Position numbers and translations under genes: made by a program. From the NCBI GenBank assembly GCA_963402885.1, contig OY727096.1, positions 18,457,820 through 18,521,819 of the forward strand: DNA of 64,000 nucleotides, written 5' to 3'. How positions within the stretch are numbered: position 1 is the first letter of the stretch; every line of letters starts with the position of its first letter. This stretch comes from Antedon bifida (Eukaryota; Echinodermata; Crinoidea; Comatulida; Antedonidae). The notes under the pieces are model-generated. The model was not told the DNA's origin and ran no database searches. It saw nothing but the letters and a program-made list of their open reading frames with translations. Shown piece by piece: positions 7,188-64,000 of this stretch.

Positions 7188-20850
<13,663 letters not shown>

Positions 20851-40700: not shown

Positions 40701-41441
40701 CTCACAAGACCAAATGGAACTGGAAGGCGCTCAAGCATGTCTATTGTCAAATCCTTGTGGCCCTGAAATACAAATATAATAATTTATAATTGATACAGCG
40801 CATTATAATAAAGTGAAAACATAGAAGAAATTAAACTAAATAATTCAAAGGCTTTAACAATGAATTATAGAATTACTTTAATTAGGCTCTGGGCTGTGTA
40901 GAATCCTGCTGGACCACTGCCAACGACGCATATCTTTGGCTTACTGTTACTACTACACAAAGCTCTCTGAAAAGTTCCCAAGATATCTGAAAGTATAAAT
41001 ATTACAATTACAAACATAATTAATGCTAAATCATTGGGACTTTGTAGTCAGGTGTGAGGTAATTACATATCACATCAGTATGGACCAATTGCTTATGTTC
41101 CATCTGAAGGGCAACTAAATGTGAGTAAAGCTCTGTCTACACTATCAAACTTTATGTGAAAAAAAAATGTGATGTGCCCATACATGGAAATGATGATGTC
41201 ATATCACTACCATATTTGGGCATATCACTACCATATTTGGACACATCACAATTTTTTTTCAACTAAGTTTGATGTGTAGACAAAGAGCTTTATTTAGAGC
41301 AAGATGGCAATTTCATATGTAATTTTATCTCACTCTTACATAGCAATATTTTTAATTTTATGAAAACTCACATCGATTAGATGTTGAATTCTGCAAACAC
41401 GCTGATTTTTTTAACATTCGCAAAACCAACAATTTTGACAT
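34733..41441 (-). CDS. FDXR: NADPH:adrenodoxin (ferredoxin) oxidoreductase, mitochondrial
   Basis: Eleven exons join in frame: 41372-41441, 40877-40986, 40667-40762, 40165-40287, 39773-39886, 38726-38827, 38021-38213, 37703-37887, 37053-37224, 34973-35143 and 34733-34860, giving 487 residues (human about 491). The N-terminal 40 residues are basic and lack acidic residues, fitting a mitochondrial presequence. The FAD dinucleotide fold shows GSGPAG at 46-51, followed by [14 protein letters not shown]. The NADP fold shows GQGNVALD at 185-192 and GRRGPLQ at 229-235, whose arginines hold the NADP phosphate in the family. The C-terminal FAD region has [11 protein letters not shown]. The enzyme passes electrons from NADPH to ferredoxin for steroid hydroxylation and Fe-S cluster assembly. 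An acceptor just upstream of the ATG implies a non-coding first exon, probably ending at the donor near 41,776. Confidence 0.97.
35180..35348. mobile_element. MITE family 1 copy
   Basis: A full-length copy with both ends and two inner CATATTTG-GGCA blocks, lying in the last large FDXR intron beside exon 34973-35143. Confidence 0.9.
36241..36260. repeat. poly-G tract
   Basis: A run of about 18 G interrupted only at its edges (GTGGGGGGG to GGGTGGGAGG) in an FDXR intron. Such tracts can form G-quadruplexes and are prone to length error. Confidence 0.8.
37519..37651. mobile_element. foldback/MITE with GCTTGGTTCACACTAGG ends
   Basis: The left end AAGCTTGGTTCACACTAGG and the right end CCAAGTTTGAACCAAGAT are imperfect inverted repeats of roughly 26 bp. 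In an FDXR intron. A related word (GGTTCCCACTAG) near 38352 may be the start of a degraded relative. Confidence 0.6.
39013..39566. mobile_element. MITE family 2, long form
   Basis: Flanked by TA, with ends AAGATGTATTGTCCC and its inverse. About 550 bp, shared in inverted orientation with the copies at 46371-47143 and 59001-59504 (common words TTTGACTTCCAGTCAAAG and CATTTAACTGAAATACAG). In an FDXR intron. Confidence 0.85.
39614..39743. mobile_element. MITE family 1 copy
   Basis: Starts TAAAGTTCTGTCTGCACTAT and ends GGAGACAGAGCTTTA, directly beside FDXR exon 39773-39886. Confidence 0.87.
40005..40146. mobile_element. MITE family 1 copy
   Basis: Starts TAAAACTCTGTCTACACTAT and ends GATAGTGTAGACAGAGCTTA. 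It ends 19 bp from FDXR exon 40165-40287, so the family crowds this gene's splice donors. Confidence 0.88.
41126..41292. mobile_element. MITE family 1 copy
   Basis: Full length, flanked by TA on both sides, in the first coding intron of FDXR. Confidence 0.9.
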
Positions 41442-43274: not shown

Positions 43275-46200
43275 TTATTCCTTGGTTAAAATGGTCAGAA
43301 TATCTACCCGGCCTGTTTCTCGAGCAATGTTCTCAAGTTCCTGAATGTTACAGATCCGTTGTGGAGAACGAGTGCATTCCCAGTGGTAGATCACGATTTC
43401 TGTCCATGACTTGGAAAGGCTAGGTGCCAGATTATCTACCACATCTATGTCCGTAACATTGAACCCTTAAATTAAACAAGAAACATTTAATGACCAAAAA
43501 ATATACAGCTGCAATGTTCTCATTTTGCTCAGCTAAATTTGGTTTGTATTTTACATTAAAAAATTAATAGATAATAAATCGTCAATCTGACAATGCATAA
43601 ATACACATTTAATAGCCTTTTTAAGAGCACTCCAAATAAAGACCACTCAAAATATTTTAACCACGAAAAAGAGATTCAAAGTGACATACCAATAGAATCA
43701 GCTAAGGACTTCCACCATTTAGTAGCATCACTTAAAGCATTTAAATTTGCACGTTTACCCGGGGACATACCTAGCGAATCCCTGAAACAATGTTTCTTTG
43801 CACGAATTGCGTCTATAGTTTCTCCAATCTAAAATAAAGAAGAGAAAGTTTAGTATGCATGATGGGATGCATGACTGGTAATCTAGTAAAATTTAATACC
43901 AGATTCAAATGATTAAACATAAGTTTAAAGATGTAATGTCCCCCAAAAACATGAAAAATGAAGATTAATTAAATCAGACTTTGAATATGTTATTTTGTAG
44001 TTTTGGTAAGTTAATCACTTCCATAGAAAAAAAAAAGAAAACAAATTATGTTTTCACTTGTAAAATGACAAAATAAATGGTTAAATTCTACCAAAAATCC
44101 ATTGGCTGGCAGTCAATTTGACCAGGTAAATACATTTTTTTCAATCCAATTTTTGGTCAAAGTGGATAACTATTATGTTACTTAATTATTTTTTCAGGGG
44201 GACAATACACCTTTAAGAAATGTATGTGGCCTACACGTGACTGGCAGGAATTCTTTTTAAACATGCATACTCATGTTACCAGGAATGGCTAAGTCATGTA
44301 AAGAGTATGGACTTATTCCAAAATACAACATATTAGATATAGTAAAATCCAGCGGAGAGGGGAACTTTGTTAGGTTTCGAAAGTTTCCATTAATCCTCTA
44401 CTGTACTGGGAAAGTGTACTGTACAAAAACTAAGAATTATGAAATCAAAACTCACCGTCTCGGATTTGAAATGTCGAATATGATCTCTGTTGAAAAAATA
44501 ATTGAAACAAGATAATTATTATTCAGTATCTTTATGTACCTGTTTATCTTCCATCAAGGTATTTAGTTGATCATCTGCTGTTATTTGTAGAGGTTATGTT
44601 TGCATCATCCGATACCGTAAGTTCTCCCAAACCCTCTGAAAACCACAGTTTAGGAAAACCAGACCAAGCCATCTGATTCAATGTACTATATTGGTATTTT
44701 ATGTTCAGTTTCATAGGTTGCGTTTGGGCTTATGACATCACATGTGATACATATTGAGTGGAGTTGTGGCTTGGTGGTTATGATGCTTGGCTACCACTCC
44801 AAGGGTTCTGGGTTGAAGTCCCATCACATGTCAGGATTTTTTCTAAGGACAAAATTACAACTCCACTCCCAAAGACTTGTAATAAGACTTTGTTTATGTA
44901 GAGCATCTTGTGTATATGTTTGTCTTGTGAACCTCTGAGGGTCCCTAATTATCAGCAATTGCTGGATGGATCACCCTCATTAAATATGGTAAAAAAATAT
45001 GTTACACAACTGTATTACAGTATTTGTCTATGGTACTCGGCAACTTATAGACACAAGAATCAGCTAGCCCTATGCATATATAATAAAACGCATTCTGAAA
45101 ACCAAAATACTTAGTCTTGCTCAAAAGTTTTCTATTTATAGACTTAATTACTTCAATGGTAGGGCAGGTGGCCTTTGCTTGCGAGGTGAAAGCTTAGCAG
45201 CTTGTAGAGCGTTTTGATAGCTGGCTTGTTCAGCGTTTTGATAGCTGTCTTGTTCCTCACTTTCTGCATCTACTCCATCTCGAATGAATTCAGCTTTTGT
45301 CTCATCTAATTTCACCATTTCATTATATTCATTTGGTTTGCTTTCAGTATCTAACAGCAAATATAAAAGAACACAAACATTTTGTGGTATTACATCAAAC
45401 TCTACAGAAACATATCTAACATGCCATCATAACATTAGTGAAACCAGGGAGGTAAAATACCTCCCTGGTGAAACTGGGGAGAATATGGCACACTCTATAG
45501 TTATAGTGAACAGGATTTATTTATATTTTACCTATTATTACATCAGGATATCTTGTGTGAGGGCTTGATGATACAGACTTAGAGCTGGTCGGAAATTCAT
45601 CCTCACCATCAACTATGCATTAAAAAGAACAAATGTTAGCCTATGAATTGATAAACAAATAATTCTACTGCACGTCCAGTTAGCCACATACTGTAAGAGA
45701 TAACATTACATCCTTACCTTCAGCAGCTACATCTGGAATCATGGTACCTGATGATACCTCTTTCCCTTATGAAATTAAAAATAATATATTAAATCTTAAC
45801 AATTGTTAAAAAATGAATTTTTAAAAAATCCATACCATTATTTAACTATATATATATGTCTCCCTGAAAATTAAAAAAAAAAAATGTTTTTGTTGAATAT
45901 GCCATTTTAATTTCACATAATATTTATTTGACAAAAAATTTGATCAAAAACAAAAATTATTTACCTGAAAAAACTGTAATTTAAAGCAAAAAATAGTAAA
46001 ATTTACTGGAAGTCTATAGGTTTTTTGCCTTTTTAATAGTGAAAACATTATTTTTTAAAGTTTTTTTTTATACGGAAGTGATTAACTTTATTTAAACTGC
46101 ACAGTCTTTTTTGTTATTAATCTTAATTTTTCAGATGAGGACAATACATATTTAAGTTTTCGTTACAAATTAATGTGTGGGTATTGGCATGATCACTAAT

Positions 46201-49200
46201 AGCAATTAAGTGTCAACTTTGTCTTAAAGAGCCCATAAGGTATATGCATGGAGTCTGCTGAGAGAGGGGAGGCAAGGTTTAAAGTTCTATAATTTATATT
46301 GTTATGGGCTAGTTAGTCATCAATGTTGATGCAAATATTTATATTTGCATGAATTATAAATTATAAATTTTAAAGATTTATTGTCCCTTGAAACACAAAA
46401 AATGAAGGTCAAAATATTCTAAATTTAAATTGGCCATATCAAAGTAATATTAAAGTTATTCACTTAAAGTCGAAAATTTGAGCCAAAAATAACAAGTAAA
46501 AGGTAAATTAGTTTGATTACATTTCGTCTAGAAAATCATCGCGAGAGAAAGTAAACAAAGATTTCAAACCATGAGTATGCATTGTGCATGATGCTAATTA
46601 GGATTGTTTACAACTCGTCACGGTTGAGAAGGTGTTTTCACACAGATCGCGAGGAAGTTTTATGATTATGCATACAGAGTAGACAAACAAGCGCGTTGCA
46701 TTATGAGATATGTCTTGATTGAAAACTTTGACTGGAAGTCAAAGTTATTATTTGAACAAAAAAACGTCTGTATTTCAGTTAAATGAAATACACTCACCCG
46801 CTGTCCCCACAAAGACAAGCGTCTCGTTCAATGATGATGGTGGTATGTTGGGATGTTCCCACTTGAGGGCAGGGTTCATGGAATGTACCATTATTATTTT
46901 TATACATTCAAGTTTTAGCTCTCTTCTCGGAGAGAATAGGCCAATGTCGGTTTATCCAGGTAAGCTAGCACTTATAGACTACCAACACCACTTTTGGTTT
47001 GTGTAATTTCAGTTAAATGATTTTTTTTCCGACTAATTGTTGGTGAAAGTTAACTATTATAATACTTCAAAATGACCCACTTTTTTTCGAAATCTTTTTT
47101 TAAAAATTTGTTTGCAATTAGTCAAAGGGACAATACATCCTTAAACCCAGAGCTACCCTTTAAAGTGAAGGCATGTTACCTGGTGTGTGTTTCCAATCTT
47201 GATCTTTCTCAACATCTTCAGTTTCTTTTATGACTTTTCTTTGGCGATCAATTGCCTCTTTAATATGACTCAGGTGATTTGAACTGCTGGGTTTTATTTG
47301 GTAGTAACCTAAAATAAAAATAGACAATTTATCATTGTATTTGTAAATTAAGAATAAACTATAAATAATGTTTTAATTATAGCAAGTGTAAGATAAATTG
47401 TAATTTTTAACTTTTTTCTGTACTGTAGTTTAGGATATTTTTATGCTGCAAGTAGATTTTGTAGCTTGATATGTATTTTTTATCAGTTCTTTGTTATAGA
47501 ACCCAATTGAAAATAAGTATTTTTCTTGGCATTCCTTGTAATCACGGCCTGTTTATCTGTGCAATTGTTTTTCTATTTCTATGTCGTATTTGTTTTTTAA
47601 CCTTGATTCCCAAATAAAGAAATTCTAATTGTTACACTATTTTAAAAAAAAACAAAAAACAATCATTACATTGCACACACAAACCAAAGAAAGTTTAAAT
47701 AATATAGACTTATTTCCATTTGACAATTAGGAACAAGACAATATAACTATTTATAAACATTTAAAAACTGCAAGATCATTGTCAAACATGAGAATAATAA
47801 CAACAAAATAACACAAATACATCAAATGTTGTTAGTACTAAGATGAACTTTCAATTTGGTTTTAATTGTGTGTCTTTGGTTTTAAATTTGTGTACACTAA
47901 ACAAGTTACATAAAATATTTTATGCTGGTATATTTACAGTGCACTCTATAATAATATGGAGAAATCTTAACTTATTTCTCCATGAGATAACCAACTCTGG
48001 TCAATAAACAATTATTGTGTCAAATTTGTAATGAATATAACAATATAAGTAATAATGATATAAAAAATGTTCTAAATTATGTTTTATATTCTTTTGTAAT
48101 TCTTTGTAATTAATATTCAAGTGTGATGATAAGAATTATTTTTTGAAGAGCATGTATTTATATTAATTCAAAACATTACATTTACTACAGCAGGTACCAT
48201 CTTTTGAATGACATGTATGTCTCTATTCACGTCATGAGGTAATTTCCCGCATGATCGCAATAAAAAACGGTACTGGGTTTGGTCTACTAGCGTTCCTGCT
48301 CCCACGACCTCACAACCATGACTCAACAAAGTTCAGATTTTGATATATTAAACTCTAGACACACCCTGGTTGATAACTACTACTGTGTCGAATTTGTAAT
48401 AACTAAATAATATAAGTAATAATGATATCAAGAATGTTCCAAATTATGTTTTATATTTTTGTGTAATTCTTTTGTAATTAATATTCAAGTGTGACGATAG
48501 GATTATTTTGAAGGGCATGCACTTATAACTCTTTAGAAGCTTAACCATGCTTATCTCTGATGTTATTTTAAACCATGTGAAGATTACAGAACACTATACT
48601 GTACAGAACATTTTCTTCAAATTGTAAAATTATATTTGAACATGTATGGTTTTTAAAATTCTTATATTACTGTATATCCTCTGGTATAATGCCACCCTTC
48701 TAGAACACGAAATTGGGCCGACTTTGGGGTGGGACTATACCCGGGGAAAGTCTGGTTCAGGAAAAAAGTGATTAGTAAGCTTTTCTTTTAAAAACTCATT
48801 TAACTGGCTAGAGAGAGACCTACATCCAGACCAAAAGTCAATACTGGGACTACACCCAGGGATATGCCTGTTTATGAAATGAGACATAAAGTACAGGTGG
48901 GATTAGACCCGAAGTGGGATTATACCTGAGGATATAAATTATTTACTTGTGTATTTTTATTATATGGATTTATTTTTATTTTGCATCTTACTGGTAGTGT
49001 TTAGATTTAGTATTGGTTTTGACTGGACTATAAAAAATCGCCTAATTTTTTACTGAACTATAAAAATAATACTTTAAAACAAACAATTTGCTAGAAAGAA
49101 ACAGTAAATTTAAGCCAGGGGGTGGGATTAAACTTGAGCATGAGATTATACTTATTCATAATGGTAATGAGATCTATACTAAGACATAAACAATTGACTT

Positions 49201-52200
49201 CACTTTGGCATAAATGCTTTTCTATTTTAAGAGACAGTACCTGTACAATTATGTTATATAACGTCACTTCACTTTCAACTAGTTGTGTTTATTGTTAAAC
49301 AATTTGTTTTTATGACGTCAAATGAATTAAGTTACTAATCTGTCTGCTTGATGTAGTTCCATATGGAAGTACTTCAGTTTGATGTTTCCTGTTTTTTTGT
49401 ATGTAAATAAACTGTGGTGTTTATTGGTTTTCAAAAATGCCTTATCACAGCTAAGATCTTTCAAATCATCATTATGTAAAAGTTCAAATAAAGCAAGAAT
49501 AAAATGCTATTATTAATTTTCTTTTATCAAATTTTAAACCAAAGAAGGGAATTTTACCTTATTACATATTTCACCTTTGCCAAAATGCGACCCGATAAAT
49601 TACCAAATCACCATTACCAAAATGATAATCTTACTTTACACTACACATACCTGAGTCGGACGCTGCACCCATCACTCCAATATTCAAAAACTCCTGGTCA
49701 TTTTCGGCGCATTTTATGTGTCGTATACTCCACAGTTTATACAGCTCTGATGGGTTGAACTTTGTAAGCGAGACAGCCGATGGTGTAACATGAAGAAGAT
49801 AAGGGGTCATTTTAGGAGATGACTCCTCAGCATCCTCTGAATCCATTAAATGTACATTCCATCTTTCTGCAATCAAAATTACATATTTTGTTATATTCTA
49901 AAAACATTACAGCAGGTAACATCTTTTGAATGGCATGAGTTTCTCCAATCACAACCATGACTCAACAAGTTGAGATTTTGTTATTTTACTGTCACTCAAA
50001 GAAAGGCATATACTAATCATTCGTCTTTTCCATACTTAAATGTAGTACAAATGTACAAAATAACATTTTAAAATTTAATATAACACTATTGTCTTACCAC
50101 ATTTAAAATGTTTCTTAAACATTTCGCACCAACTATGTGCTTCTTCTCTATTTTTCGTCTGGAAAATTACATTTTTTTCCTTGGAGAATACAGTAAAATA
50201 GCGTGTTTCTCCATTGCCAATATTTCCTTCCTCGATTCCGATGAAACTTTCCGCGTGAATCACGTATTGCTTTCTCTTTTTCTCTTTTCTGTTAGGATAG
50301 ATATTCAGTAGATATTCTGAAGAACCTAAAACAAATGGTATAACAATCAAAACAATGAGTTATTACATTAATTGTAAAAAGAGAATATTATAGCCATTAT
50401 TATAAATATTTATTGTGATCATGATTGTGTATAAAAAAAAACAATGGTCCGTTTAATATTTATATGATTCCAATTCATATAAAAAGGCAAAGTAACATTG
50501 TAAAGTTGAAAAGGGATGGCAATCACAGAGCAATAAACTAAACTTTTACAATAGTAGTGCCCTAAAAATACAGTATTATAAAATAATGAAACATGAAATG
50601 CTATTCATTATTTATACAACCTCAAGCATTTTATTTTTATTCCTCAAAAAGATTTGTACATGCCGATTGTCTGCAGTTTCAGAGCAGAAGTGAATTCATA
50701 AAACCGTACATATATTGTAGGCCTATGACTTGTATATTATATTTACTATATTAATTGTTATATATACATTATTGATTTATTTTATGGTGGAAACAAAAGA
50801 AAGAAGAAAGATGTTTTATAAAATTTTTGATTGTAATCAAGTTCAAATCAATTTACCTTCATATCGTCTTTGAAAAGTAACCCATTTCTCCTGTTAAAAA
50901 TACAGTAAAAATTTAAACATCTTTTATCTTATTGTAAAAAGTACAGCCACTACTGTTTGCGAACAGTTACTATAGCGTATTAATCTCTATGGATCTAATG
51001 AGGCAATATTGATATATTTATATAAAACGTTTAAGGCCTTTAATTTAAATAAACTAACAAACAGGATATGAAGTGCTGTAACAAAAAAGGTTTTGTTGTA
51101 CATTATATTTAAATGTTATTTTCTTTACAAATAGTAACAATCCTTTAGGTAGCAACAGGATCTACCCATCAATTTTGAACAACAGGAAATAGGGCATTGG
51201 AATTTAAAATGAAAACACCCACACGAAAAAAGGTAATAATACCCGGCACCATGGAGATGTAGAATAATCATTGTATCTATTTGAATTTCTGGTTCAGTCC
51301 GGTTTCAAGAATACTATATTAAAAGGCATATGTTTTTCCTTGTTCATTGCATTCATATTTTCATTTCATTTATTTATTTATTTGACCAACAAACCATAAT
51401 ATAAAACATACAGAAATGAATTGGTGAGGGACTGCTAAAGCAAATAAAATTACTATACAAGAGTCAGCAGGCCCATTCTAAACTAAAATATACATTTATA
51501 ATAAACAATATATTAAAGATGTATTGTTATTGTCCCCAAAACCATGAACAGGTTATTTTGTAGTTTTACTAAAGTTATTCACTTCCATAGAAAAATAAAT
51601 GGTTGAATTTAAAGATGTATTGTCCCCCTGAAAAAATAATTCTTAAACTTTTTTTTAATATTCCAGATTAATGTAACACAATAGTTATCCACTTTGACCA
51701 AAAATTGGATCGAAAAAAAAAATGTATTTACCTTGAAAAAATGTGATTTAAAGCAAAAAATGGTCAAATTGGCTGCCAGCCAATGGATTTTTGGTTGAAT
51801 TTAACCATTTATTTTGTCATTTTATAAGTGAAAACATTATTTTTTTTCGTTTTTTTTTCATTGGAAGTGATTAACTTTATTAAAACTACAAAATAACATA
51901 TTCAAAGTCTGATTTAATTAATTTTCATTTTTCATGTTTTTGGGGGACAATACATCTTTAACCAAAAACCAATTATTGGCTGACAGCCAATTTGACTATT
52001 TTTTCCTCTAAATCAAATTTGTTTCAGGTAAATAAATTTATTTTTTCGATCCAATTTTTGGTCAAAGTGGATAACTATTATGTGACATTAAAATGGCATA
52101 TTCAACAAAAACATTTTAAGAATTATTTTTTCAGGGGGACAGGATATGAAGTGCTGTAACAAAAATGGTTTACTATACTTGGCATTTTGTTGTATAGTTA

Positions 52201-54178
52201 TTTTCTTTACAAATAGTAACAATCCTTTAGGTAGCAACAGGATCTACACATCAATGAATACTTTGAACAATGAACAGGAAATAGGGCATTGGAATTTAAA
52301 ATGAAAACACCCACACGAAAAAAGGTAATAATAAATGTCTTTTTCCCCTCATCCAAGAGCAGGTGAGGATCCTGGGTAGCGCTAGGAGCGTGCCCTCTCC
52401 TCTCCCCCTTTGACAGTTAAAATGGATTTTTTATAACTATTTGACAGATTATTAAAATTATAAGCACTGCCCCATTAAAAAAATCCTGGATCCGCTCTTG
52501 CCAGAGTATGCCTATGCTTAACACCCGCCTGGATCCGTTCTTGCCAGAGTATGCCTATGCTTAACACCCGCCTGGATCCGTTCTTGCCAGAGTATGCCTA
52601 TGCTTAACACCCGCCTGGATCCGTTCTTGCCAGAGTATGCCTATGCTTAACACCCGCCTGGATCCGTTCTTGCCAGAGTATGCCTATGCTTAACACCCGC
52701 CTGGATCCGTTCTTGCCAGAGTATGCCTATGCTTAACACCCGCCTGGATCCGCTCTTGCCAGAGTATGCCTATGCTTAACACCCGCCTGGATCCGTTCTT
52801 GCCAGAGTATGCCTATGCTTAACACCCGCCTGGATCCGTTCTTGCCAGAGTATGCCTATGCTTAACACCCGCCTGGATCCGTTCTTGCCAGAGTATGCCT
52901 ATGCTTAACACCCGCCTGGATCCGTTCTTGCCAGAGTATGCCTATGCTTAACACCCGCCTGGATCCGTTCTTGCCAGAGTATGCCTATGCTTAACACCCG
53001 CCTGGATCCGTTCTTGCCAGAGTATGCCTATGCTTAACACCCGCCTGGATCCGCTCTTGCCAGAGTATGCCTATGCTTAACACCCGCCTGGATCCGTTCT
53101 TGCCAGAGTATGCCTATGCTTAACACCCGCCTGGATCCGCTCTTGCCAGAGTATGCCTATGCTTAACACCCGCCTGGATCCGCTCTTGCCAGAGTATGCC
53201 TATGCTTAACACCCGCCTGGATCCGTTCTTGCCAGAGTATGCCTATGCTTAACACCCGCCTGGATCCGCTCTTGCCAGAGTATGCCTATGCTTAACACCC
53301 GCCTGGATCCGTTCTTGCCAGAGTATGCCTATGCTTAACACCCGCCTGGATCCGTTCTTGCCAGAGTATGCCTATGCTTAACACCCGCCTGGATCCGTTC
53401 TTGCCAGAGTATGCCTATGCTTAACACCCGCCTGGATCCGTTCTTGCCAGAGTATGCCTATGCTTAACACCCGCCTGGATCCGTTCTTGCCAGAGTATGC
53501 CTATGCTTAACACCCGCCTGGATCCGTTCTTGCCAGAGTATGCCTATGCTTAACACCCGCAATGGCTTTTTTTTATCTTGCCAGAGTATGCCTATGCTTA
53601 ACACCCGCAATGGCTTTTTTTTATCTTGCCAGAGTATGCCTATGCTTAACACCCGCAATGGCTTTTTTTTATCTTGCCAGAGTATGCCTATGCTTAACAC
53701 CCGCAATGGCTTTTTTTTATCTTGCCAGAGTATGCCTATGCTTAACACCCGCAATGGCTTTTTTTTATCTTGCCAGAGTATGCCTATGCTTAACACCCGC
53801 AATGGCTTTTTTTTTATTATGGCTTTTTATTTCGTACTCTTTGCAATAAAAATTGAATTGTGAGTAGATTAAATAGATAAAGAATCAATATAAATATAAA
53901 ATTTTAAAACTTTCTAGCAGAAAACCATAAAGATATAAAAAAAACCCTGCTGTTATTATTATTATATAGACTAAAAAAAGAAAACATCCTTTTTTGAGAG
54001 AGCTCAACCAGGCACATTGGCATTACGTAAAAAAAAAAAAACAAAAAAAACCCGTAGCCTATGGAATACTTACTTGTACAGTTTTATGACTATTACTGTA
54101 AATCTGCAAGAAACCAGACTTTATTGGTGGCACTGAAGACATAGCCTCTGTACTAGGTATTGACGCTGTGCTTCCCAT
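43275..54178 (-). CDS. PH-PTB-Death domain adaptor, paralogue B (complete)
   Basis: Eleven exons join with consistent phases: 54074-54178, 50857-50890, 50098-50325, 49651-49866, 47180-47308, 45718-45765, 45532-45612, 45152-45350, 44456-44486, 43690-43828 and 43275-43465, giving 466 residues. PH domain about 19-120, from SGFLQIYSNSHKTVQEKWV to the closing helix HSWCEMFKKHF. IRS/Dok-type PTB about 122-222 (PYLLHVTPSAVSLTKF, LWSIRHIK, then GYYQIKPSSSNHLSHIKEAI). Linker about 235-357 with NEYNEM (YxxM), two copies of SYQNA (YxN) and PPALPLK (PxxPxK). Death domain about 375-460 (KWWKSLADSIG, EIVIYHWEC, ELENIARETGRVDILTIL). The N-terminus MGSTAS fits N-myristoylation. PH plus PTB is the Dok layout, but the C-terminal Death domain is not known in Dok. 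It probably scaffolds kinase and Death-domain partners at the membrane. The start is the only ATG after an acceptor; a 5' UTR exon probably ends near 54,583. Confidence 0.85.
43926..44215. mobile_element. MITE family 2, short form
   Basis: Flanked by TA. Ends AAGATGTAATGTCCCCC and GGGGGACAATACACCTT. About 290 bp, related to the element at 51610-51960. Intron between exons 9 and 10 of paralogue B. Confidence 0.8.
44761..45000 (+). mobile_element. tRNA-derived SINE
   Basis: A-box TGGCTTGGTGG at 44767 and B-box GGTTGAAGTCC at 44811 have tRNA-like spacing, followed by about 170 bp of body. The tail (GCAATTGCTGGATGGATCAC) recurs inverted at 29937. It lies in an intron of paralogue B, opposite to its transcription. 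Confidence 0.75.
45443..45469. repeat. perfect short hairpin
   Basis: ACCAGGGAGGTA, three A, then TACCTCCCTGGT: a perfect 12-bp stem with a 3-nt loop in the intron between exons 7 and 8 of paralogue B. No elements flank it that would explain it. Confidence 0.8.
45845..46154. mobile_element. MITE family 2, degraded short form
   Basis: The left end is eroded (TGTCTCCCTGAAAATT) and the right end is GAGGACAATACATATTTA. The inside shares GATTAACTTTATT-AAACT and GTGAAAACATTATTTTTT with 51610-51960. Paralogue B intron. Confidence 0.6.
46371..47143. mobile_element. MITE family 2, long form with a nested insertion
   Basis: Ends TAAAGATTTATTGTCCC and GGGACAATACATCCTTA. It matches 59001-59504 except for a 219-bp block at 46787-47005. 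The block is bounded by a direct repeat ATTTCAGTTAAATGA (46772-46786 and 47006-47020), which occurs once in the empty copy. Confidence 0.85.
46787..47005. mobile_element. 219-bp insertion with 15-bp target-site duplication
   Basis: The empty allele exists in the sister element at 59001-59504, so the borders are exact. A target duplication of about 15 bp is typical of LINE-mobilised retroposons. The insert is less AT-rich than its host and has no poly(A) or tRNA boxes that I can see. Family unknown. Confidence 0.7.
48000..48520. repeat. two diverged direct repeats of about 150 bp
   Basis: 48000-48160 and 48365-48520 share CAAATTATGTTTTATATT/CTAAATTATGTTTTATATT, AATATTCAAGTGTGA and TATAAGTAATAATGATAT. 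A third related word, CACAACCATGACTCAACAA, occurs at about 48310 and again at about 49953. All in a paralogue B intron. Confidence 0.65.
51061..52330. repeat. local duplication of about 190 bp flanking nested MITEs
   Basis: 51061-51240 and 52138-52330 share ACAGGATATGAAGTGCTGTA, TAGTAACAATCCTTTAGGTA and a TAAAATGAAAACACCCACAC block ending in AAAAAAGGTAATAAT. Family 2 elements lie between them, so the unit is about 1.08 kb. In intron 1 of paralogue B. Confidence 0.8.
51514..52138. mobile_element. MITE family 2 short form interrupted by another copy
   Basis: An outer copy starts at 51514 (TAAAGATGTATTGTTATTGT), is interrupted at 51610 by a complete copy (51610-51960, AAGATGTATTGTCCCCCTG to GGGGGACAATACATCTT), and resumes to GTCAAAGTGGATAACTATTA and TTTTCAGGGGGACA. 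Its last bases are missing at the duplication border. Confidence 0.7.
52484..53532. repeat. 43-bp minisatellite, about 24 units
   Basis: Units start every 43 bp from 52501 to 53490. Each has CTTGCCAGAGTATGCCTATG, then CTTAACACCCGCC and TGGATCCG(T/C)T. Units are near identical; C and T alternate at one site after GGATCCG. The upstream border (AAAATCCTGGATCCGCTCTTG) resembles a hAT-like transposon end, probably the seed. Not a coding repeat, since 43 is not a multiple of three. Intron 1 of paralogue B. Confidence 0.97.
53533..53815. repeat. 48-bp minisatellite, about 6 units, continuous with the 43-bp array
   Basis: The same 28-bp core (CCAGAGTATGCCTATGCTTA plus ACACCCGC) is followed by AATGGC(T)8ATCTTG instead of the GGATCCG part, giving 48 bp (starts at 53533, 53581, 53629, 53677, 53725, 53773). 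Because 48 is a multiple of three, several periodic open frames appear on both strands, but they are by-products. Confidence 0.97.
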
Positions 54179-55059
54179 ATCCTGCAATAAAAAAAATTAT
54201 TTGCTAATTGTGGTTTAACATTTTCAGTCAGTGGACATGACCTTTATACATAACCAATACAAATATTCATTTTTACTGTCAATAACCTTTGTTTTAAATA
54301 AATAATTGCTTTTGACAGAACGAAATCAAAAAATTATCAGCGACTTAAAACAAAAGTTAACTATTTCTTTGCTAGCATATTTTATACCATAGACCACTTG
54401 TCCACAAAGGTAATATACAGAAATGAGAAAAAAAACCAAATATAATATCTACCAATAGTACAGGTTTTAGCTTGTTCAGAGGGATTGAATAATGATGCAC
54501 TAACCTCAGTAACACTTAAGTTTTAAGTGAAGAATTTGAGAGCATAGGTATATAGTTAATAAAACAAGTTTACTTACTGAAGACCTGCTTCTCTTGATAG
54601 TAATAGAGAGATTATCGTTGACTATTGTCTTTCTCTTTAAAAAGCTATTCACACAGGATATGCAGCTCCAATATGTCAGCCGTTTCCAGATAAATAAACA
54701 AAGTACATCATAAACTTCCTCATATCAATAAAATGGTTGAGTGGGTAATATTATGGTCCAGTGACTTTAAAAAATACCTGCTCAGATGACTCACAAAACT
54801 AAATAAGTTTCCAAATTACAGAGGGCACTGTTGTTGAAGTGACATTTAATAAAACAACTGGAAAAATAATAGATGTATAGTTTGCAATGTTCTTGCAGAT
54901 ATTTATTTACTTACAATGTACATTTTAATAAAAATTGCTGAGACTTGTTCATACACTGACAATTTTGATAATAAAAAAAACTAAGCCAACAAACGAACAA
55001 AGCTATCATAATGGAGATTTGTTTACATGTGTATTTTTGTTCAAACCAATTAAAGACTG

Positions 55060-55214
55060 CCAATCGACATAAAGACATCTGAAAACATCAACATTTTCAA
55101 AACACGACTAAAAACCCATTTTTACACAGAGGCATTTCCTGCTTAACTTTGTCAAGCGCCTTTGAACATTATTATGGATACTGGCGCTATATAAATCTGA
55201 TTGATTGATTGATT
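55060..55214 (+). mobile_element. 5'-truncated non-LTR retrotransposon (L2/CR1-like) 3' end
   Basis: Codons 55069-55146 read IKTSENINIFKTRLKTHFYT then EAFPA and stop, the usual C-terminus of such reverse-transcriptase ORFs. A short 3' UTR with TGGCGCTATATAAAT and a (GATT)n tail follows. Only this end is present. Confidence 0.75.
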
Positions 55215-56300
55215 AAAGACCATATTATACTATAATACACGTTTCCTGAATAAACTTTTGCCGGATCCAAAAAGAGAAAAATGAAGTGATGAACCAAACT
55301 TAATGTCCTGTATATTGCAATGTATTTTTTTAGGACACCTATGATATTAAACTAGCTATATTATACTATTTATAAATTATAAAAATTAGATATTTCATAT
55401 AAATCTTAAGTCTAATTTATGCCTGGCAATAAATAATTTGTAAAAAAGTAATGACAGGTATAAATATATATATCTCTGGTTATTTCAAAATGGATCAAAT
55501 TGTAGAATTCACACTTGAAAATAAAATGGTCTTAAACCTTAGAATGTAGCTCGTTGTACTATTTATGAACAATGAAGAAGAATTAAATAATTGTCAAGCC
55601 AGCAGTTTCATAATCTTTATCTCAAGTTTTGAAGCATGAAGCAGATTCCACTGTACTGTTTAGTATGGAATGATTTAAATAGAATCAAGAAATGCGACAA
55701 GTCTTGCTAAATTCAAAGAGAATATTTTAATTTAAATACACAAGACATGTATGCAGTTTATTTTCTATGTTTTATAACATATTTTTTTGATAATATTTTG
55801 AGTACTTGAATTTGCATCTTTTAATTTTAAATTGTTTTTCTTTTTTATTTATTCTGTTCATTCATTAATCCTTTTTAATTTTAAATCAGATTATTATTCT
55901 TTGCTTGTTATTATATGTAATTTTAATATACCATAGTTAATTTCTGATAATCGGAATGTATAGTGTAGCTTACAGTATGAAATGATATGTTTTAATGTTA
56001 CATCTTAGAGAAATTTTCTCTATGGTTCTTATATCACACTGTATACCTTGTTGTTAATTATAAGAATAATTTATGGCCTTGCACGGCCTTGAAGAAAAAC
56101 ACCTTTGGGTTCTTCCTGTTTAAATAAAGTATTTATTATTATAGTACTGTTATGTACAGTAGGTTAAACATGGAGTTATAAAATTAATTAAATTTTATAA
56201 CTATGTACTGTTCCCAGTAAGTGGGATGAACTGCATGTACAGTATGAATGTACTGTTCATAGATGGAAGCACAATGTACAGTACTATAGGAAGCCATTAA

Positions 56301-56577
56301 GGCCATAATAGTAACAAATTAAAACAAAGAACAATGTCAAAAAAGTCCTTTAATTGTTCGACTTGTCCTTTGATTTGCCAAATTGTCCGTTGTTTTCTGC
56401 TTATTCTTTGTTGTTTAACTTGACTATTATGAGAATATATTTTAGTTCTTTGTTTTCTATATTTCTTTGTTGATTTTTATTTTCTTTTGTAGTTTTTTTA
56501 GTTTGCTCATTGATTTTTCAAAACGTTTTGTTGTTTTTTGACATTGTTCTTTGTTTTAATGTTTTACTATTATGGCC
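56301..56577. mobile_element. foldback element with GGCCATAATAGTAA ends
   Basis: The left end GGCCATAATAGTAACAAATT and following AAACAAAGAACAATGTCAAA match the inverse of the right end (TTTGACATTGTTCTTTGTTT, TACTATTATGGCC) over about 45 bp. It lies about 250 bp past the paralogue A stop, so possibly in its 3' UTR. Confidence 0.8.
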
Positions 56578-56822
56578 GCCCATACAGTACTGTTGGTGTT
56601 TTTGCAAGAAAATTGGTAGAGAGAATAAATGCCTGGCCGCAAGACATGTAAGCTGTGGGTCATTGTGGGATACAAACTAGGAACCAACTGACCAATTGCA
56701 GGCACTAACTTCCACAATGTTAGTCTGTATACTTTATATCTATCAGATCCAGCTGAAAGACTTTGAAAGACATTGATAACAAGTTTTTTTTTCATAAATT
56801 ATTTTCTAGGTGTTTTGCAAGA

Positions 56823-59800
56823 TCATCCTTTGTTTTCGAGAATGCTCAGTAAATCTGGACGCTGTAATTCCATTGTTATTTTTTTCAATTCTTCAATGCT
56901 GCATTCCCGTACAGGACTCGGCATGCATTCCCAATGATAAAATAAAATTTCTGTGCAGAATTTGTTCAATCGTGGCGCAAGTGATTTTACAATGTCAATT
57001 TCAGAACAATTTAAACCTAAAATGAAAAAAAAAATGTCATTTTTATATGAAAACCTGCTCGCTAGATAAAACTTAAATTTTACTGAAGTTACATTTCATA
57101 TTAAACAATACTGAATGTTTATAAGTTGAATGTGGAGAATAAGATGGGAGGACCTATGAAGCAGAGCCGAGTCCTGAGTTCCCAATCAATTAATACAAAA
57201 CATTCATTATTTATTCAAATACACAACTACTGTTCCTTTTATTCAATACCGCTTTCATCTTGAATAAAATGTCGAAGGATAGGCACATTGAAGAATTTAG
57301 AACTTGTTATTTAAAAATATATTATGTGTAATAAAGCTGATTGTATCTTTATTATTAACAACGTTTGAACACAATCTTTATGACGATATGATATAATCAA
57401 TGACGTTGACATTATATAAGCCAATGTTTCACTTTCAGTCGTTTACAAATATCTTTAAAACATGTTGTATTATAAAGATTTACAATTACATGCTACATTC
57501 TTCCAATCATGTAGCTGTTTTAGGATGTGCGAAGAATTTGTTTTGTATTTTTAAACAATAATACTGAATTTATCAATTCTAATAGTATAACAATGTGAAA
57601 ATACCACCGATGCACATAATACGTAAAAATATCATAGTATAAAACTGATTCTAAATAACGAGAGGGAAGACATGATTTGAAGTTTCAATCTTTATTCGAT
57701 CATCATTCCTGATGATAGAAACGTCAAATCACCTGACGATGATCAAATATAGATCCAAACGTCAAATTGTGGCTTCCCTCTCGTTATTTGGAGTTAGTTT
57801 TATACTATATTAATTATATATATCTATTGGTTTTTACAAATAAATAGTACATACCAATTACGTCGGCCAAGTTTGTCCACCATTCATGAACGTCCATGTA
57901 CACGTATAAGGAATGTCGTTGTGATGGCGATATTTGTAAAGAGTCTCGATAGCACACTTTGCTAGAACGAATTGCATAAACAGTTTCTTCTATCTGTAAC
58001 AAAAACAATTAAAATCATTATATTTAACATAACATCTATCATAATTTGACTCTGCAGGCCAATTTACACAGACGAGCGGTAACGGTAATAAAAATGTTAT
58101 TCATTATGGAGTAAGAGCAGTTTTCTGTTTGAGCTCATGCCTATTACTTGCTCCTGGCAAGATGAAATGTAAAACATACTTTTAAGAACTTTTGCCGAAT
58201 AAATATTATAATATTATTATTATGACCATTTACAGACAATGCGGAGCGGGCCGGCGGTTTCTGCTCAGAATAGATCCAGATTCTATAGTGGGACAAGCTA
58301 TGCGGTTTTCCGCTTACCGTCACCGCTCGTCTGTTTAAATTGGCCTTTACACGGTAATGAGAACATTCAATATCATCTTTTACAAAGTCCACATCGGTAA
58401 TATAAACCCAATCTGACGAGGTGGAAAGGTGGGAAGCTGGTATTCAGGGTATTTACCTTTTCACACATGGATGAAAACAGTGAGAATAGAGCGAAAGGTA
58501 AAATAAAATGTCATTAATTCCAGGGGTATGTTTTTTATTCTTTTTTTTTTATTTACAGAGATAGTTTTTACACAATACAGCAAAATTGAAACTGATTCTT
58601 GAAAGTGGGATGACTAAAAGAATTGATTTGATACATTTCCTACTTACTGAATTTGAACGAAAGTGTCTAAAGTAATCTCTGAAATCAAGAAATAGAACAT
58701 ATGACAATGATGATGTAGAGAGGTGAAAAACATATAAAAACAGTTAAAAAGGTAAAGAAAAGCAATATAACAGAAATGTTGCATAATGCTAGTGTAATAA
58801 AAGCACTCAGAAACTGAGTGGAGAACTTGGCAAAATATTGCGCATATTGGCGCATGTTGATATTTCAGTCCATGTTAAAAGAATACAAATTTATGTTGAT
58901 TAATTAATTAGTTATTAATGAACCGATTTTCTTGATAGGCATTTCAATAGGCATGTTCTTTAAGTACAAACCTATTTACACCGAAAAATTCATAATACTT
59001 TAAAGATGTATTGTCCCTTGAAACACAAAAAATGAAGGTCAAAATTTTCTAAATTTAAATTGGCCATATCAAAGTAATATTAAAGTTATTCACTTTAAGT
59101 CGAAAATTCAAGTTTACGTAATTAACAGGTAAATTAATTTGATTATATTTCGTCTGGAAAATCGTTGCGAGCAAAGATTTCAAACCACGAGTATGCATTA
59201 TGCATGATGCTAATTAGGTTGAGAAGGTGTTTTCACAAAGATCGCGAGGAAGTTTTATGATACAGAGTAGCCAAACAAGCGCGTTGCATTATGAGATAGT
59301 TTTAATCGAAAACTTTGACTGGAAGTCAAAATTATTTTTTGAAGAAAAAAAATGTCTGTATTTCAGTTAAATGATTTTTTTTGTGACTAATTTTTGGTGA
59401 AAGTTAATAACTATTATGATACTTCAAAATGACCCACTTTTTTCTAAAATCTTTTTTTAAATTTTTTTTAGAATTACTGTAGTCAAAGGGACAATACATC
59501 TTTAACTTCAAAATTGTAGACGCTATCGTGCTAACCAACAAACAAACAAAGCAAGTAGTATACTTGGAAAAATTCTATCTATATTCTATATAAATTAATA
59601 ATATATAAATGTATACTCACTTGATTGGTCTAGCTGGGGGTACTGGCTTTGGGGGTAGGGATACATTCTTGTAGTCGTCTTCATTGCATATATTAACATA
59701 CGAATTTGGTCCATAGCTCTCACCTTCATTTATAGTAAATAAAAAAATATAAATGTAAAAAGATGGTGACTTCATACCACTGACCAGATATTGTCATGTT

Positions 59801-62800
59801 GTAGCATTGGTGAAGGTTGGTGGCTGAAATGTGTGCTTGCCAATCCCAGGGTCCTAAAGTTCAAATCCTACATACAGTAGCTCCAATTGTAATAGCATTT
59901 TGCTTACTGACAGTGCCACTAATATTACACTTATCAACACACAAACCTTTTACTTATTTCTCATGATTTTGAGAATTAGTTTAGCAATCGCCATTTTATT
60001 CACTATTCAGTTTATATTTTAAGCACCACTTAAAGATTGTAAGTACTTTCACATGTAATATTGAAGTGTATTGGCCCTCTTATTTATTATTAATATTACT
60101 GAATGGTTCTGAATAGATCTTTATAAGTTGTCAACTCATTTATAGTACCTTTACTATAAAATTATGTAGCTTGAGATAACAGTACAGTAGCATAGTGCTA
60201 TGTCATATAACTCTAGGCTGGTTGACATTAAGGCACAACAATAAAGTTTAGGGAAGTAGCTCCCAATGGTGTAATAAAATCAAAATATTACCTAATGGAG
60301 TAGACAAAGGTGGTTTGTAATCATTATTAATTGCACTAGCTTTCATGCTATAAATTGCTTCCTTTATTCTTCGAAGGTAGTGTAACTTTTCCGCAGAAAA
60401 CGAGAAAAAACCTAATTAAAAAAAAGACGATTTAGTTTTACACTGGCTCAATACAGTAATCAATCATTTTTTTTTACAGCAAATTAAGAGGTGCTAAATT
60501 CCAGAAAATCTTGTGAATGGCTGCTCAGAAACAGATCGTACTTAAATACTTAATATGATCATTCTCCATAAAACACACAAATGAGTATAGTTTCTTATTT
60601 ATTTAAGCACTAACATGTAATCTTTTAAGAAGATCTGATTGGTTATAATAGAACGATTTAATAACCATGAAAAATAACTGAATGACCCAATATGAATATC
60701 TGACCACAATTTATATCCATAATCAAACAGTATAAAATTATATTTAGTAATAAATATTATTATATTTAACTATCACAACTAATACTACATTAAGAACTTT
60801 TCTTCTATTATTATAAACTAACCTGTTCCCAGTTTTTCATCTATAAATTCTAAAGTGATAACATCATTGTCATATTGAACTTTTTTAATGCTGTTGAGAC
60901 TCCAACGTTTGTAGAATCTTGGCGGATTGAGGTGCGCTAAGCAAACCGATGACTGGGTCACATGAAGCGTCTTCTTCTTGATGTCTGCGGCGCCCTCTTT
61001 TGGGTATATCAACCAACTTTCTATAAATATAATTTATTGGTAATTGTTGATAAAACATATTTACAGAGTTCTCAACCAGCTTCAGCTAATTAAAAAAATC
61101 ACATCAAACAGTTCGCCCACATATGAGCATGATTTTTTTTACTCCACAGCTATGATGTAGTGGCGCGGCACGTTATTATCACTGCCTGTTAGTTATCAGT
61201 TGGCTTCGATTTGGTTAGTCTGTGTTGACACATGTTTGGGAAAACCCAGAACTACATATTTTTGTGGGACACTGATTTTACCATAAGTTTGGGAAAACCC
61301 GCAACCACATGTCTTTTTGTGTGACGTTGAATTAACCATAACTATAGGTTTTACCATGGGTTTCCCTTAAATAATTAATATAATAATATTTTTGCTTAGT
61401 TTTATATGTATTTTCTGTACACCCACATATTGTCTTGCTTGTGAAATATACAGCATTTTCAATTGAATTGCATTATGAATAATGTCAAAAGAAATCAATA
61501 AAAATTGAGCCTGATTTGAAATATACCACAAAGTTGTTGCAAACGTCATCAAAGGGATTTATCTTTAATCTTGATCATTATTCTTAATTCTCAGTATGTG
61601 TGGTGATAAAAGGAATAAAGTTATAATTACAAATTCAAGGTTAAAAACAGATTATCAACAGTAAGCTAAAGCCAACCTTTTGTTATTGTACAATCTCATT
61701 TTTTCTGTAAAGCTCTGTCTACACTATCAAAATAGTGTGACAAAAAAAGTGTGATGTGCCCAAATATGGTAGTGATATGCCCAAATATGGTAGTGATATG
61801 ACATCATCATGTCCATATATGGGCACATCACATATTTGTGTCACATAAAGTTTGATAGCGCATGTAGACAGACTTTTAATAAAGCTCATACATTTTTATG
61901 TTATTAACTAATAAAGGCCATATCTTCATACTTGGCACACAAATTTGGGTAGCAAAACATATCATGAACAAGTGTAGTGGATATTCTCACATAAAATTTG
62001 ATGTGTAGACAGAGCTTAACTTGAAAATGTTATGAAAGTTGGGCTTTAATGACAAATTGACAAGGTTGTGGTGAATATTTGACTCATGATTTTGTCCTCT
62101 TTAACAATTATAATCATTTTAGTTACTGTATCATCTGTTTAGATATTATATTAAAATTTGTCTGGCTGTTTTTTTCGATCCACAGCATTGTCATTTTTTC
62201 AGTAATTTGCCTTTGAATTTATATTATATTAAAGTAACTTCTAGTACTGTATATATCAATGGCTGGTTTGGAGTTTCTTTGTTGCCTGTAAATTGATATT
62301 AAAATTATTAAGTATATCATCTTATTTGAGATTCAGCCACTGATAACCACAGCTGTGTCAATTTTTCAATAATTTACCTTTTGATTTATATATAAAATTG
62401 TTATGGAAATTAATTAAATAACTTATAAATGGTGAAGTTGAGGAAATCTGTGAGAATGAGAAAAAGCTGACCTAACTAGAGATTCAAACCCAAACTTGTT
62501 GACTAATACTGTACTTACTGTGGCAAAGATTATCCTTAAATTTGCGTTGCCAGACGTTAAGTTCATCAATAGTGGACGACTGGAACATAATGGTCTCATC
62601 CACCAGAATGACAGCAAAATATACAATACTTTCACTCTTGGTTGTTTTCACATGGCCCTGCTCAGTACCAATAAATTCTTGCGAGTTTATATATAATATT
62701 TTGCTCTTTTTATCATGCTTTTCAGTGTCATCTTTGTATAAACATAATTGGTACATGTTGTTAGAACCTAAAATTAGAAAATGAAACTAATGTAAATTGT

Positions 62801-63477
62801 TGATCAAGCACCATTTACTGTTTCAGTTATGTTTGTAATATTTAAATTCATTTTGGTTGTAATATCCTGTGTTGGCCCAATGATAGTCCAGGGGCCTGTG
62901 TACGATATTTGGTGAAAATAAAGGGGTGGGATAACTAAATGAAGGGGTGGGACTACTAAATGAAAGGGTGGGACTACTAAATGAAGGGGTGGGACTACTA
63001 AATGAAGGGTGGGACTACTAAATGAAGGGATGGCACTACTAAATGAAGGGGGTGACTACTAAATGAAGGGGTGGGACTACTAAATGAAGGGTGGGACTAC
63101 TAAATGAAGGGGTGGGACTACTAAATGAAGGGTGGGACTACTAAATGAAGGGGTGGGACTACTAAATGAAGGGATGGCACTACTAAATGAAGGGGTGGGA
63201 CTACTAAATGAAGGGGTGGGACTACTAAATGAAGGGTGGGACTACTAAATGAAGGGGTGGGACTACTAAATGAAGGGGAGGACTATTAAATGAAGGAGTG
63301 GGACAAGTAAATAAGGACTATACTCGGATTGCATGAATGGAATTACTAATGTCTTGCGTTCAAATTATGGCTAAACAATTGAGAAAATTGGGATTTGGTA
63401 AATTTTTTATTGAAAGTCATTTACAGAAACATATATGGAAACTCACCATTTAATATTTTTTCCAGGATAACCCATCT
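56823..63477 (-). CDS. PH-PTB-Death domain adaptor, paralogue A (5' exon outside window)
   Basis: Eight exons are visible: 63447-63477, 62519-62767, 60823-61020, 60292-60411, 59621-59723, 58648-58678, 57855-57993 and 56823-57016, giving 354 residues plus stop. They correspond one to one with exons 2-5 and 8-11 of paralogue B with the same phases (last three 31, 139, 194 nt against 31, 139, 191). The first PH exon must lie beyond 64000. PH part RWVILEKILNG to DELNVWQRKFKDNL. PTB part KTLHVTQSSVCLAHLN, RWSLNSIKKV, then GFFSFSAEKLHYLRRIKEAI. The short linker has SYVNI and DYKNV (YxN) and PPKPVPPARP (PxxPxR). Death domain from EWWTNLADVIG through EILFYHWEC to DLLSILENKG. It lacks two linker exons of B. 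Probable role: signalling adaptor at the membrane; partners unknown. Confidence 0.83.
57636..57807. mobile_element. foldback element in the last intron of paralogue A
   Basis: About 60-bp near-perfect inverted arms: AGTATAAAACTGATTCTAAA with AACGAGAGGGAAG on the left, and CTTCCCTCTCGTTATTTGGA with GTTAGTTTTATACT on the right. Capable of a long hairpin in the pre-mRNA. Confidence 0.85.
58056..58346. mobile_element. MITE with AGGCCAATTTACACAGACGA ends
   Basis: Left AGGCCAATTTACACAGACGA plus GCGGTAACGGTAA mirrors right TTACCGTCACCGC plus TCGTCTGTTTAAATTGGCCT over about 33 bp with two mismatches. In the paralogue A intron between exons 58648-58678 and 57855-57993. A short open frame inside is not a gene. 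Confidence 0.88.
59001..59504. mobile_element. MITE family 2, long form
   Basis: Flanked by TA, ends AAGATGTATTGTCCC and GGGACAATACATCTT. About 500 bp, the uninterrupted sister of 46371-47143. In a paralogue A intron. Confidence 0.87.
59815..59880 (+). repeat. possible tRNA-derived SINE head
   Basis: TGGCTGAAATG (A-box-like) and AGTTCAAATCC (B-box-like) are about 38 bp apart. No recognisable body. Paralogue A intron. Confidence 0.3.
61708..61878. mobile_element. MITE family 1 copy
   Basis: Starts TAAAGCTCTGTCTACACTAT and ends TGTAGACAGACTTTTA. It carries two tandem CCCAAATATGGTAGTGATAT blocks. In a paralogue A intron. Confidence 0.88.
61988..62018. mobile_element. right-end fragment of MITE family 1
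   Basis: Only CACATAAAATTTGATGTGTA and GACAGAGCTTA remain, 110 bp from a full copy; perhaps an aborted or deleted neighbour. Confidence 0.65.
62918..63312. repeat. 21-bp minisatellite, about 18 units
   Basis: The unit is GGGGTGGGACTACTAAATGA plus A, varying by loss of one G or small changes (GGATGGCACT, GGGGAGGACTAT). In the paralogue A intron between exons 63447-63477 and 62519-62767. Related GTGGGACTATACCC words occur at 48,730-49,140 in paralogue B. Confidence 0.95.
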
Positions 63478-64000
63478 CTAAAAAAGTAACATCAAACAAT
63501 ATTTAAAAACAAAAATACACAAAATCTTATCACAATATTGTCTTCTACTTCCTTATGTAGACAATCTTATGTGCTTGTTTGTGAATGAATGGCCACATAC
63601 ATGTACTGTAGTAGAAAAATGTAATACAATAATATTAATAATGATTGGTCACATGTTTTGCCCTTATTCGGTCATAAAGAATGGAACCATGCTTGTGGTG
63701 ATTGCTAGAGGTTAGATTCAAGCCCAAGGAAGCAGATGATAATCTAAAAACCGTATTTATTCGAATAAGTTTAATGTTCATGAGGGTTGTTCAGGAGGGC
63801 ATTTATTTGAGAGGCTTTTATTTTTTTGGGTGTAATATGGTAACACATGTATAATCAAATAAATACCCACTACAGCAGATATGAAAAAATGCAACATAAT
63901 TAATATCGAGACATGATAAAGTACGTTTATTCCAAATGATGTTTTAAGGGGCGTTTATTTAAAGTGGGGGGTTTATTCAAATAAATATGGTATTCACATT
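63478..64000. other. intron of paralogue A at the window edge
   Basis: Because the first PH exon is absent, this stretch is read as intron. AT-rich, with a patch (GAGGTTAGATTCAAGCCCAA then GGAAGCAG) related to 36,345-36,375, so probably a dispersed repeat. No exon seen. Confidence 0.4.

Follow-up and report, generated by a model that had tools for sequence, protein, structure and literature searches.

Two adjoining crinoid genes with a Dok/IRS-type head and a Death-like C-terminus

The window analyzed here, a 64,000-nucleotide stretch of the genome of the crinoid Antedon bifida (contig OY727096.1, positions 18,457,820 to 18,521,819), holds two adjoining genes on its minus strand, hereafter designated gene A and gene B, whose products combine, in this order, a PH domain, an IRS/Dok-type PTB domain, a motif-bearing linker, and very probably a C-terminal Death domain. 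This order in tandem paralogues had been proposed from the DNA letters alone (hereafter the sequence-only reading), and it is supported by profile and structure evidence and by its recurrence in public crinoid proteins. Both genes were rebuilt exon by exon from the window DNA, all introns used being GT-AG and the phases matching, in agreement with the earlier joining of the exons by splice sites and phase. Gene A (54181..43275) comprises 11 exons with one open frame of 466 amino acids from ATG to stop, and gene B (63477..56823) has 8 exons inside the window, encoding 354 amino acids (Table 1).

Three public proteins, all labelled 'uncharacterized' in the database, have the same domain order: P0001 (Anneissia japonica LOC117100626, 474 amino acids), the counterpart of gene A; P0003 (Anneissia japonica LOC117100625, 402 amino acids), the counterpart of gene B; and P0002 (Antedon mediterranea, 379 amino acids). 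The comparison with related genomes that the sequence-only reading had suggested thus spoke in its favor. The gene B model is identical to P0002 at 344 of 354 positions without a gap, showing that the gene B join is right; eight of the ten differences fall in the linker and two in the PTB. P0002 has 25 extra N-terminal residues, for which the best ungapped match across the final 523 window bases (63478–64000) was 7/25; since these residues are not encoded there, exon 1 of gene B lies beyond the window. Gene A agrees with P0001 at 192 of 441 positions (44%), which supports its join, the support from P0001 being weak for exons 6 and 7 (48 and 81 nucleotides). A candidate open reading frame at about 46790–46890 with a donor-like end was not used in gene A.

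Genes A and B follow a common phase series (0; then 1 through PH, PTB, and linker; then 2, 0, and 1), so that the equal phases seen in the sequence-only reading held throughout. The equal lengths did not, as only two of the eight common exons match (31/31 and 139/139 nucleotides), the other six being unequal (A/B, 34/31, 228/249, 216/198, 129/120, 199/103, and 191/194) and gene A having two more linker exons than gene B. The proposed tandem paralogues were supported, and both are also present in Anneissia; gene B, P0002, and P0003 are orthologues, gene B sharing 71% identity with P0003 and 36% with gene A. LOC117100625 and LOC117100626 have consecutive LOC numbers and the same longest contig value (475,706), and the two Anneissia genes are probably neighbors. 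Since both paralogues occur in Antedon and in Anneissia, the pair was probably duplicated before Antedonidae and Comatulidae separated; the duplication is an ancient one that has been retained and does not stem from an annotation error. Protein database searches returned crinoid proteins only. As the query aimed at the Death part (P0001 residues 352–474) returned P0001 alone, missing the known relatives P0002 and P0003, these crinoid-only matches cannot show restriction to crinoids.

The PH-PTB head and its phosphotyrosine pocket

The N-terminal half of the proteins is a Dok/IRS-type PH-PTB tandem. Among PDB entries, Dok-7 was the best match of both the PH-PTB profile and the structure model; talin F3 ranked second, behind Dok-7, for the PH-PTB profile and headed the matches of the full-length one. 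The PH domain is supported by structure and more weakly by sequence: residues 20–122 of the P0001 model form seven strands and a helix, mostly at high pLDDT (predicted local distance difference test) and inside the Dok-7 PH-PTB match, and gene A gives a Pfam PH match (E 4.6e-5) at 24.3 bits, 0.8 bits below the cut-off of 25.1. The IRS-type PTB follows directly after the PH domain, with a Pfam E value of 2.8e-5 (over the cut-off) in gene B and only 0.13 in gene A. For the three public proteins, Pfam gave PH in none, IRS in one (E 3.1e-5), and Death in one (E 0.029); with P0001 alone, it found no PH, PTB, or Death and two weak unrelated matches, and the NCBIfam matches were two weak bacterial ones for P0001, P0002 and P0003 having none.

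The phosphotyrosine pocket was aligned with reference sequences, using IRS1 numbering. The residue corresponding to IRS1 R212 is K in gene A, gene B, P0002, and P0003 and G in P0001; at the R227 position, none of the five has arginine; and P0001 and P0003 carry an arginine one place after the R212 position. The canonical phosphotyrosine-binding arginine pair is therefore missing from all five crinoid proteins, which makes classical phosphotyrosine reading by the PTB unlikely, and on this ground the idea that the PTB plainly reads phosphotyrosine was rejected. Talin and FERM F3 domains, which lie near the crinoid PTB by sequence and by structure, likewise have a PTB fold without the phosphotyrosine arginines and work without them, although no FERM F1 or F2 lobes were found in the crinoid proteins. 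By analogy, the crinoid PTB probably binds unphosphorylated peptide or lipid. With the arginine pair absent, a tyrosine-kinase link is more likely to run via the YxN motifs of the linker.

Motifs of the linker

The linker (from IK[E/D]AI to RHF), which is probably unstructured, contains exactly two YxN motifs in each of the five proteins, with tyrosine totals of 4, 6, 4, 6, and 3. YxN is a motif of the Grb2-SH2 type. A PxxPx[K/R] site stands directly before the conserved DxxRHF in all five (PALPLK, PARPIK, PPLPIR, PARPIK, and PARPIK). Judged by its motifs, the linker resembles the tyrosine docking-motif tail of Dok/IRS adaptors in carrying putative docking sites. The interpretation given in the sequence-only reading was supported in part: the domain order and the tandem paralogues held, whereas the proposed coupling to tyrosine-kinase signaling would rest on the YxN motifs of the linker, present in 5/5 proteins.

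The C-terminal domain

The C-terminal domain is very likely a Death domain. Profile-profile comparison (hhalign) with a set of eight human Death domains gave a probability of 93.8 and a score of 42.9 over 82 columns, and the maximum score of 200 column-shuffled controls, a lenient null that destroys local order, was 21.3. The DED, CARD, and PYD sets, of only one or two sequences each, scored 13.1, 10.8, and 9.3 as against 42.9, and the lowest of 28 two-sequence Death sets scored 18.05. By sequence, the domain is thus placed with Death above the other death folds, and a DED, CARD, or PYRIN domain instead of Death was rejected on the profile scores. The best single Death matches were RIPK1, ankyrin-1, and p75NTR, and the weakest was UNC5B (14.97, near the 13.1 of the DED set).

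In a PDB profile search, the ankyrin-3 Death domain came top (E 0.031; next match, 0.69), and querying the PDB with the C-terminal sequence of gene A by itself returned no Death domain and two chance matches. Pfam detected Death in two of four isolated C-terminal pieces (best E 0.0021), with no other family for any piece, and in neither full-length gene model up to E 10. The Pfam part of the check suggested earlier gave thin single-sequence matches, with IRS over the cut-off in gene B, PH just under it in gene A, and Death in neither full-length gene model; profile-profile comparison was clearer. The P0001 model, built on a 3-sequence alignment, has six helices in this region (388–400, 404–410, 415–424, 430–442, 452–461, and 465–472) at pLDDT 37–57; the Foldseek-based comparison of this model (995 of the top 1000 chains), in which the PTB part took up the places, says nothing on the Death part, and the absence of Death folds from the 50 rows listed carries no weight for or against. 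Between gene A and P0001, the C-terminal piece is 60% conserved, PH-PTB 43%, and the whole 44%.

Comparison with known adaptors

The Dok proteins (Dok-7 above all; also Dok1–6) and IRS share with the crinoid proteins a PH domain, an IRS-type PTB directly after it, and a tail bearing tyrosine and proline motifs, but the crinoid proteins lack the phosphotyrosine-binding arginine pair and have a probable Death domain; no Dok or IRS protein is known to end in one. BCAP, BANK1, and Dof also unite an immune assembly domain (theirs being TIR) with tyrosine and SH3-binding motifs in one chain, but with TIR, DBB, and ankyrin repeats in place of PH, PTB, and Death; no Pfam match to TIR, DBB, or ankyrin repeats was listed up to E 10 for gene A, gene B, or P0001–P0003. 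According to passages of PMC6937578, BCAP connects Toll-like receptor complexes to SH2/SH3 proteins, GRB2 among them; it binds GRB2 through SH3 rather than by way of its YPNT site, and it holds back Toll-like receptor signaling; by analogy, it may be regarded as the nearest working analogue of the crinoid proteins. DOK3 is reported to damp Toll-like receptor signaling in mammals (PMC3384629).

Artificial DED-PTB and DED-SH2 chimeras of Howard, Pawson, and colleagues, as cited in PMC2575513, redirect tyrosine-kinase signals to apoptosis. Like the crinoid proteins, they join a phosphotyrosine-signaling module to a death-fold domain, but they are artificial, contain DED and not Death, and have a functional PTB or SH2. 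Passages of the same paper describe amphioxus Death-domain 'direct connector' proteins (death-NACHT, death-caspase, DED-NACHT, and TNFR-caspase among the examples), which resemble the crinoid proteins as lineage-specific fusions of a death fold to other signaling domains in a deuterostome, but have no PH-PTB among the examples in those passages. As for the combination itself, no paper describing the PH-PTB-Death order was found among the literature matches listed (titles and abstract starts of the smaller part of all matches), consistent with the sequence-only reading, which knew of no such described family; the one paper naming both domains, PMC2394772, does so in tabulated or listed form, and its passages do not join them. 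The parts are known, and their order is apparently new to us.

Proposed function and alternatives

We favor, with moderate confidence, a tandem pair of crinoid scaffolds in which a Dok/IRS-type PH-PTB head, a linker with docking motifs, and a Death domain at the C-terminus would bridge a tyrosine kinase to Death-domain assembly. Its exon structure, domain order, and motifs are direct observations, as is the presence of both paralogues in two families of comatulids; its function would be that of a membrane-docked scaffold bringing Grb2-type SH2/SH3 proteins to Death-domain assembly. The PH-PTB block would place the protein at the membrane on the tail of a receptor or adhesion receptor, the PTB binding mostly without phosphotyrosine. 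The YxN tyrosines of the linker, once phosphorylated by a tyrosine kinase, would recruit Grb2-like SH2/SH3 adaptors together with the PxxPx[K/R] site, and the Death domain would bind that of a MyD88/IRAK-, RIPK-, p75NTR-, or ankyrin-like partner. The tyrosine-kinase side may thereby be brought into, or kept out of, a Death-domain signaling complex. Judging from BCAP and DOK3, the proteins would be somewhat likelier to dampen Toll/NF-kB-type signaling than to trigger cell death.

Several observations call for caution. The Death assignment is thin by single-sequence Pfam, and the six predicted helices have low confidence. Both YQN copies of gene A sit in a 24-bp coding tandem repeat (45200–45255) that doubles the motif, three of the five proteins have YxN motifs beyond the linker as well, and three of the five linkers counted (gene B, P0002, and P0003) are orthologous. 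The remoteness of the Death match and the low fold confidence also speak for the divergent helical C-terminus being a homotypic dimerization unit of a Dok-like adaptor with no link to cell death or immunity, which we nevertheless consider rather unlikely. This alternative is likewise favored by the presence of ankyrin-1 beside RIPK1 and p75NTR among the best single matches, as ankyrin Death domains are not known for a role in apoptosis, and by the closeness of the PH-PTB half to Dok-7, which works as a dimer; the better conservation of the C-terminus suggests instead a fixed partner, although that partner could be the protein itself.

A direct tyrosine-kinase-to-caspase switch, in which receptor phosphorylation clusters the protein so that a FADD/caspase-type complex forms on its Death domain and the cell dies, appears quite improbable. 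The artificial chimeras do redirect kinase signals in this way (Howard et al., as cited in PMC2575513), but the crinoid PTB lacks the phosphotyrosine-binding arginines, the domain is Death-like and not DED or CARD, so that a FADD-like bridge would be needed, and DOK3 and BCAP, as cited above, dampen Toll-like receptor signaling. The chance that a Dok-like gene was wrongly joined to a neighboring Death-domain gene is close to negligible. This artifact was rejected because the order is common to both paralogues of two genera, in two joins made here and in three public annotated proteins; moreover, genes A and B have the same phases and identical 31- and 139-nucleotide exons ahead of and within the Death part, and P0002 repeats the gene B join.

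Receptor-tyrosine-kinase docking and Death-domain assembly usually belong to separate toolkits, linked via several proteins. For the favored scaffold pair, we tentatively suggest, as a possibility below even chances, a natural family, so far crinoid-only, that hard-wires tyrosine-kinase docking to Death assembly as a counterpart of the synthetic chimeras; with fast-changing linkers and a better-kept Death domain, the paralogues may be opposite-acting or differently addressed scaffolds. A one-chain family that two feather-star families seem to have retained as a pair would provide a test case for tyrosine phosphorylation directly gating a Death complex and a natural comparison for engineered death-fold adaptors and, if the proposal is true, would show how immune wiring can be rearranged in an early-branching echinoderm lineage.

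Exon coordinates and other features of the window

Table 1 Exons of genes A and B and further features, in window positions
Feature	Position	Strand	Evidence or remark
Gene A exon 1: start codon, PH start	54074..54181	-	acceptor tgcag, donor gtaagt, phase 0 out
43-bp tandem array, ~30 copies, in gene A intron 1	52485-53800		98% match
Gene A exon 2: PH	50857..50890	-	phase 0 in, 1 out
Gene A exon 3: remaining PH	50098..50325	-	splice/phase; Pfam PH residues 19-118, just below cut-off
Gene A exon 4: IRS-type PTB	49651..49866	-	splice/phase; alignment with gene B and P0001
Gene A exon 5: PTB end, linker start	47180..47308	-	splice/phase; IK[E/D]AI helix in 5/5 proteins
Gene A exon 6: linker, weaker support	45718..45765	-	splice/phase only
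Gene A exon 7: linker, weaker support	45532..45612	-	splice/phase; RYPDVI/RVPDLV, a short P0001 match
Gene A exon 8: linker, YNEM, YQNA, YQNA, PALPLK	45152..45350	-	splice/phase; motif alignment
Gene A exon 9: conserved DxxRHF	44456..44486	-	31 nucleotides in both genes
Gene A exon 10: Death domain, first half	43690..43828	-	139 nucleotides in both genes
Gene A exon 11: Death domain, second half, stop	43275..43465	-	splice/phase; Death by profile and by Pfam in 2/4 C-terminal pieces
Gene B exon 2: PH	63447..63477	-	splice/phase; P0002 has 25 residues ahead of exon
21-bp tandem array lying between exons 2 and 3 of gene B, ~19 copies	62916-63316		
Gene B exon 3: PH	62519..62767	-	splice/phase; P0002 confirms
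Gene B exon 4: PTB	60823..61020	-	Pfam IRS E 2.8e-5, residues 109-168
Gene B exon 5: PTB end, linker start	60292..60411	-	splice/phase; P0002
Gene B linker exon: YVNI, YKNV, PARPIK	59621..59723	-	splice/phase; P0002; motif alignment
Gene B exon with conserved DxxRHF	58648..58678	-	splice/phase; P0002
Gene B first Death exon	57855..57993	-	splice/phase; P0002
Gene B last Death exon, stop	56823..57016	-	splice/phase; P0002
Minus-strand exon	40865-41047	-	no Pfam match on the piece
Single-exon rhodopsin-type receptor gene	32562-33713	+	Pfam 7tm_1 E 4.4e-40
DUF4457 exon	12457-12756	-	Pfam E 3.1e-12
DUF4457 exon	8859-9140	-	Pfam E 8.9e-15

Outside the two genes, the window contains a single-exon gene for a rhodopsin-type G-protein-coupled receptor, a minus-strand exon that presumably resembles the start of ferredoxin-NADP reductase, and two minus-strand DUF4457 exons, of the kind present in the katanin-interacting protein KATNIP.
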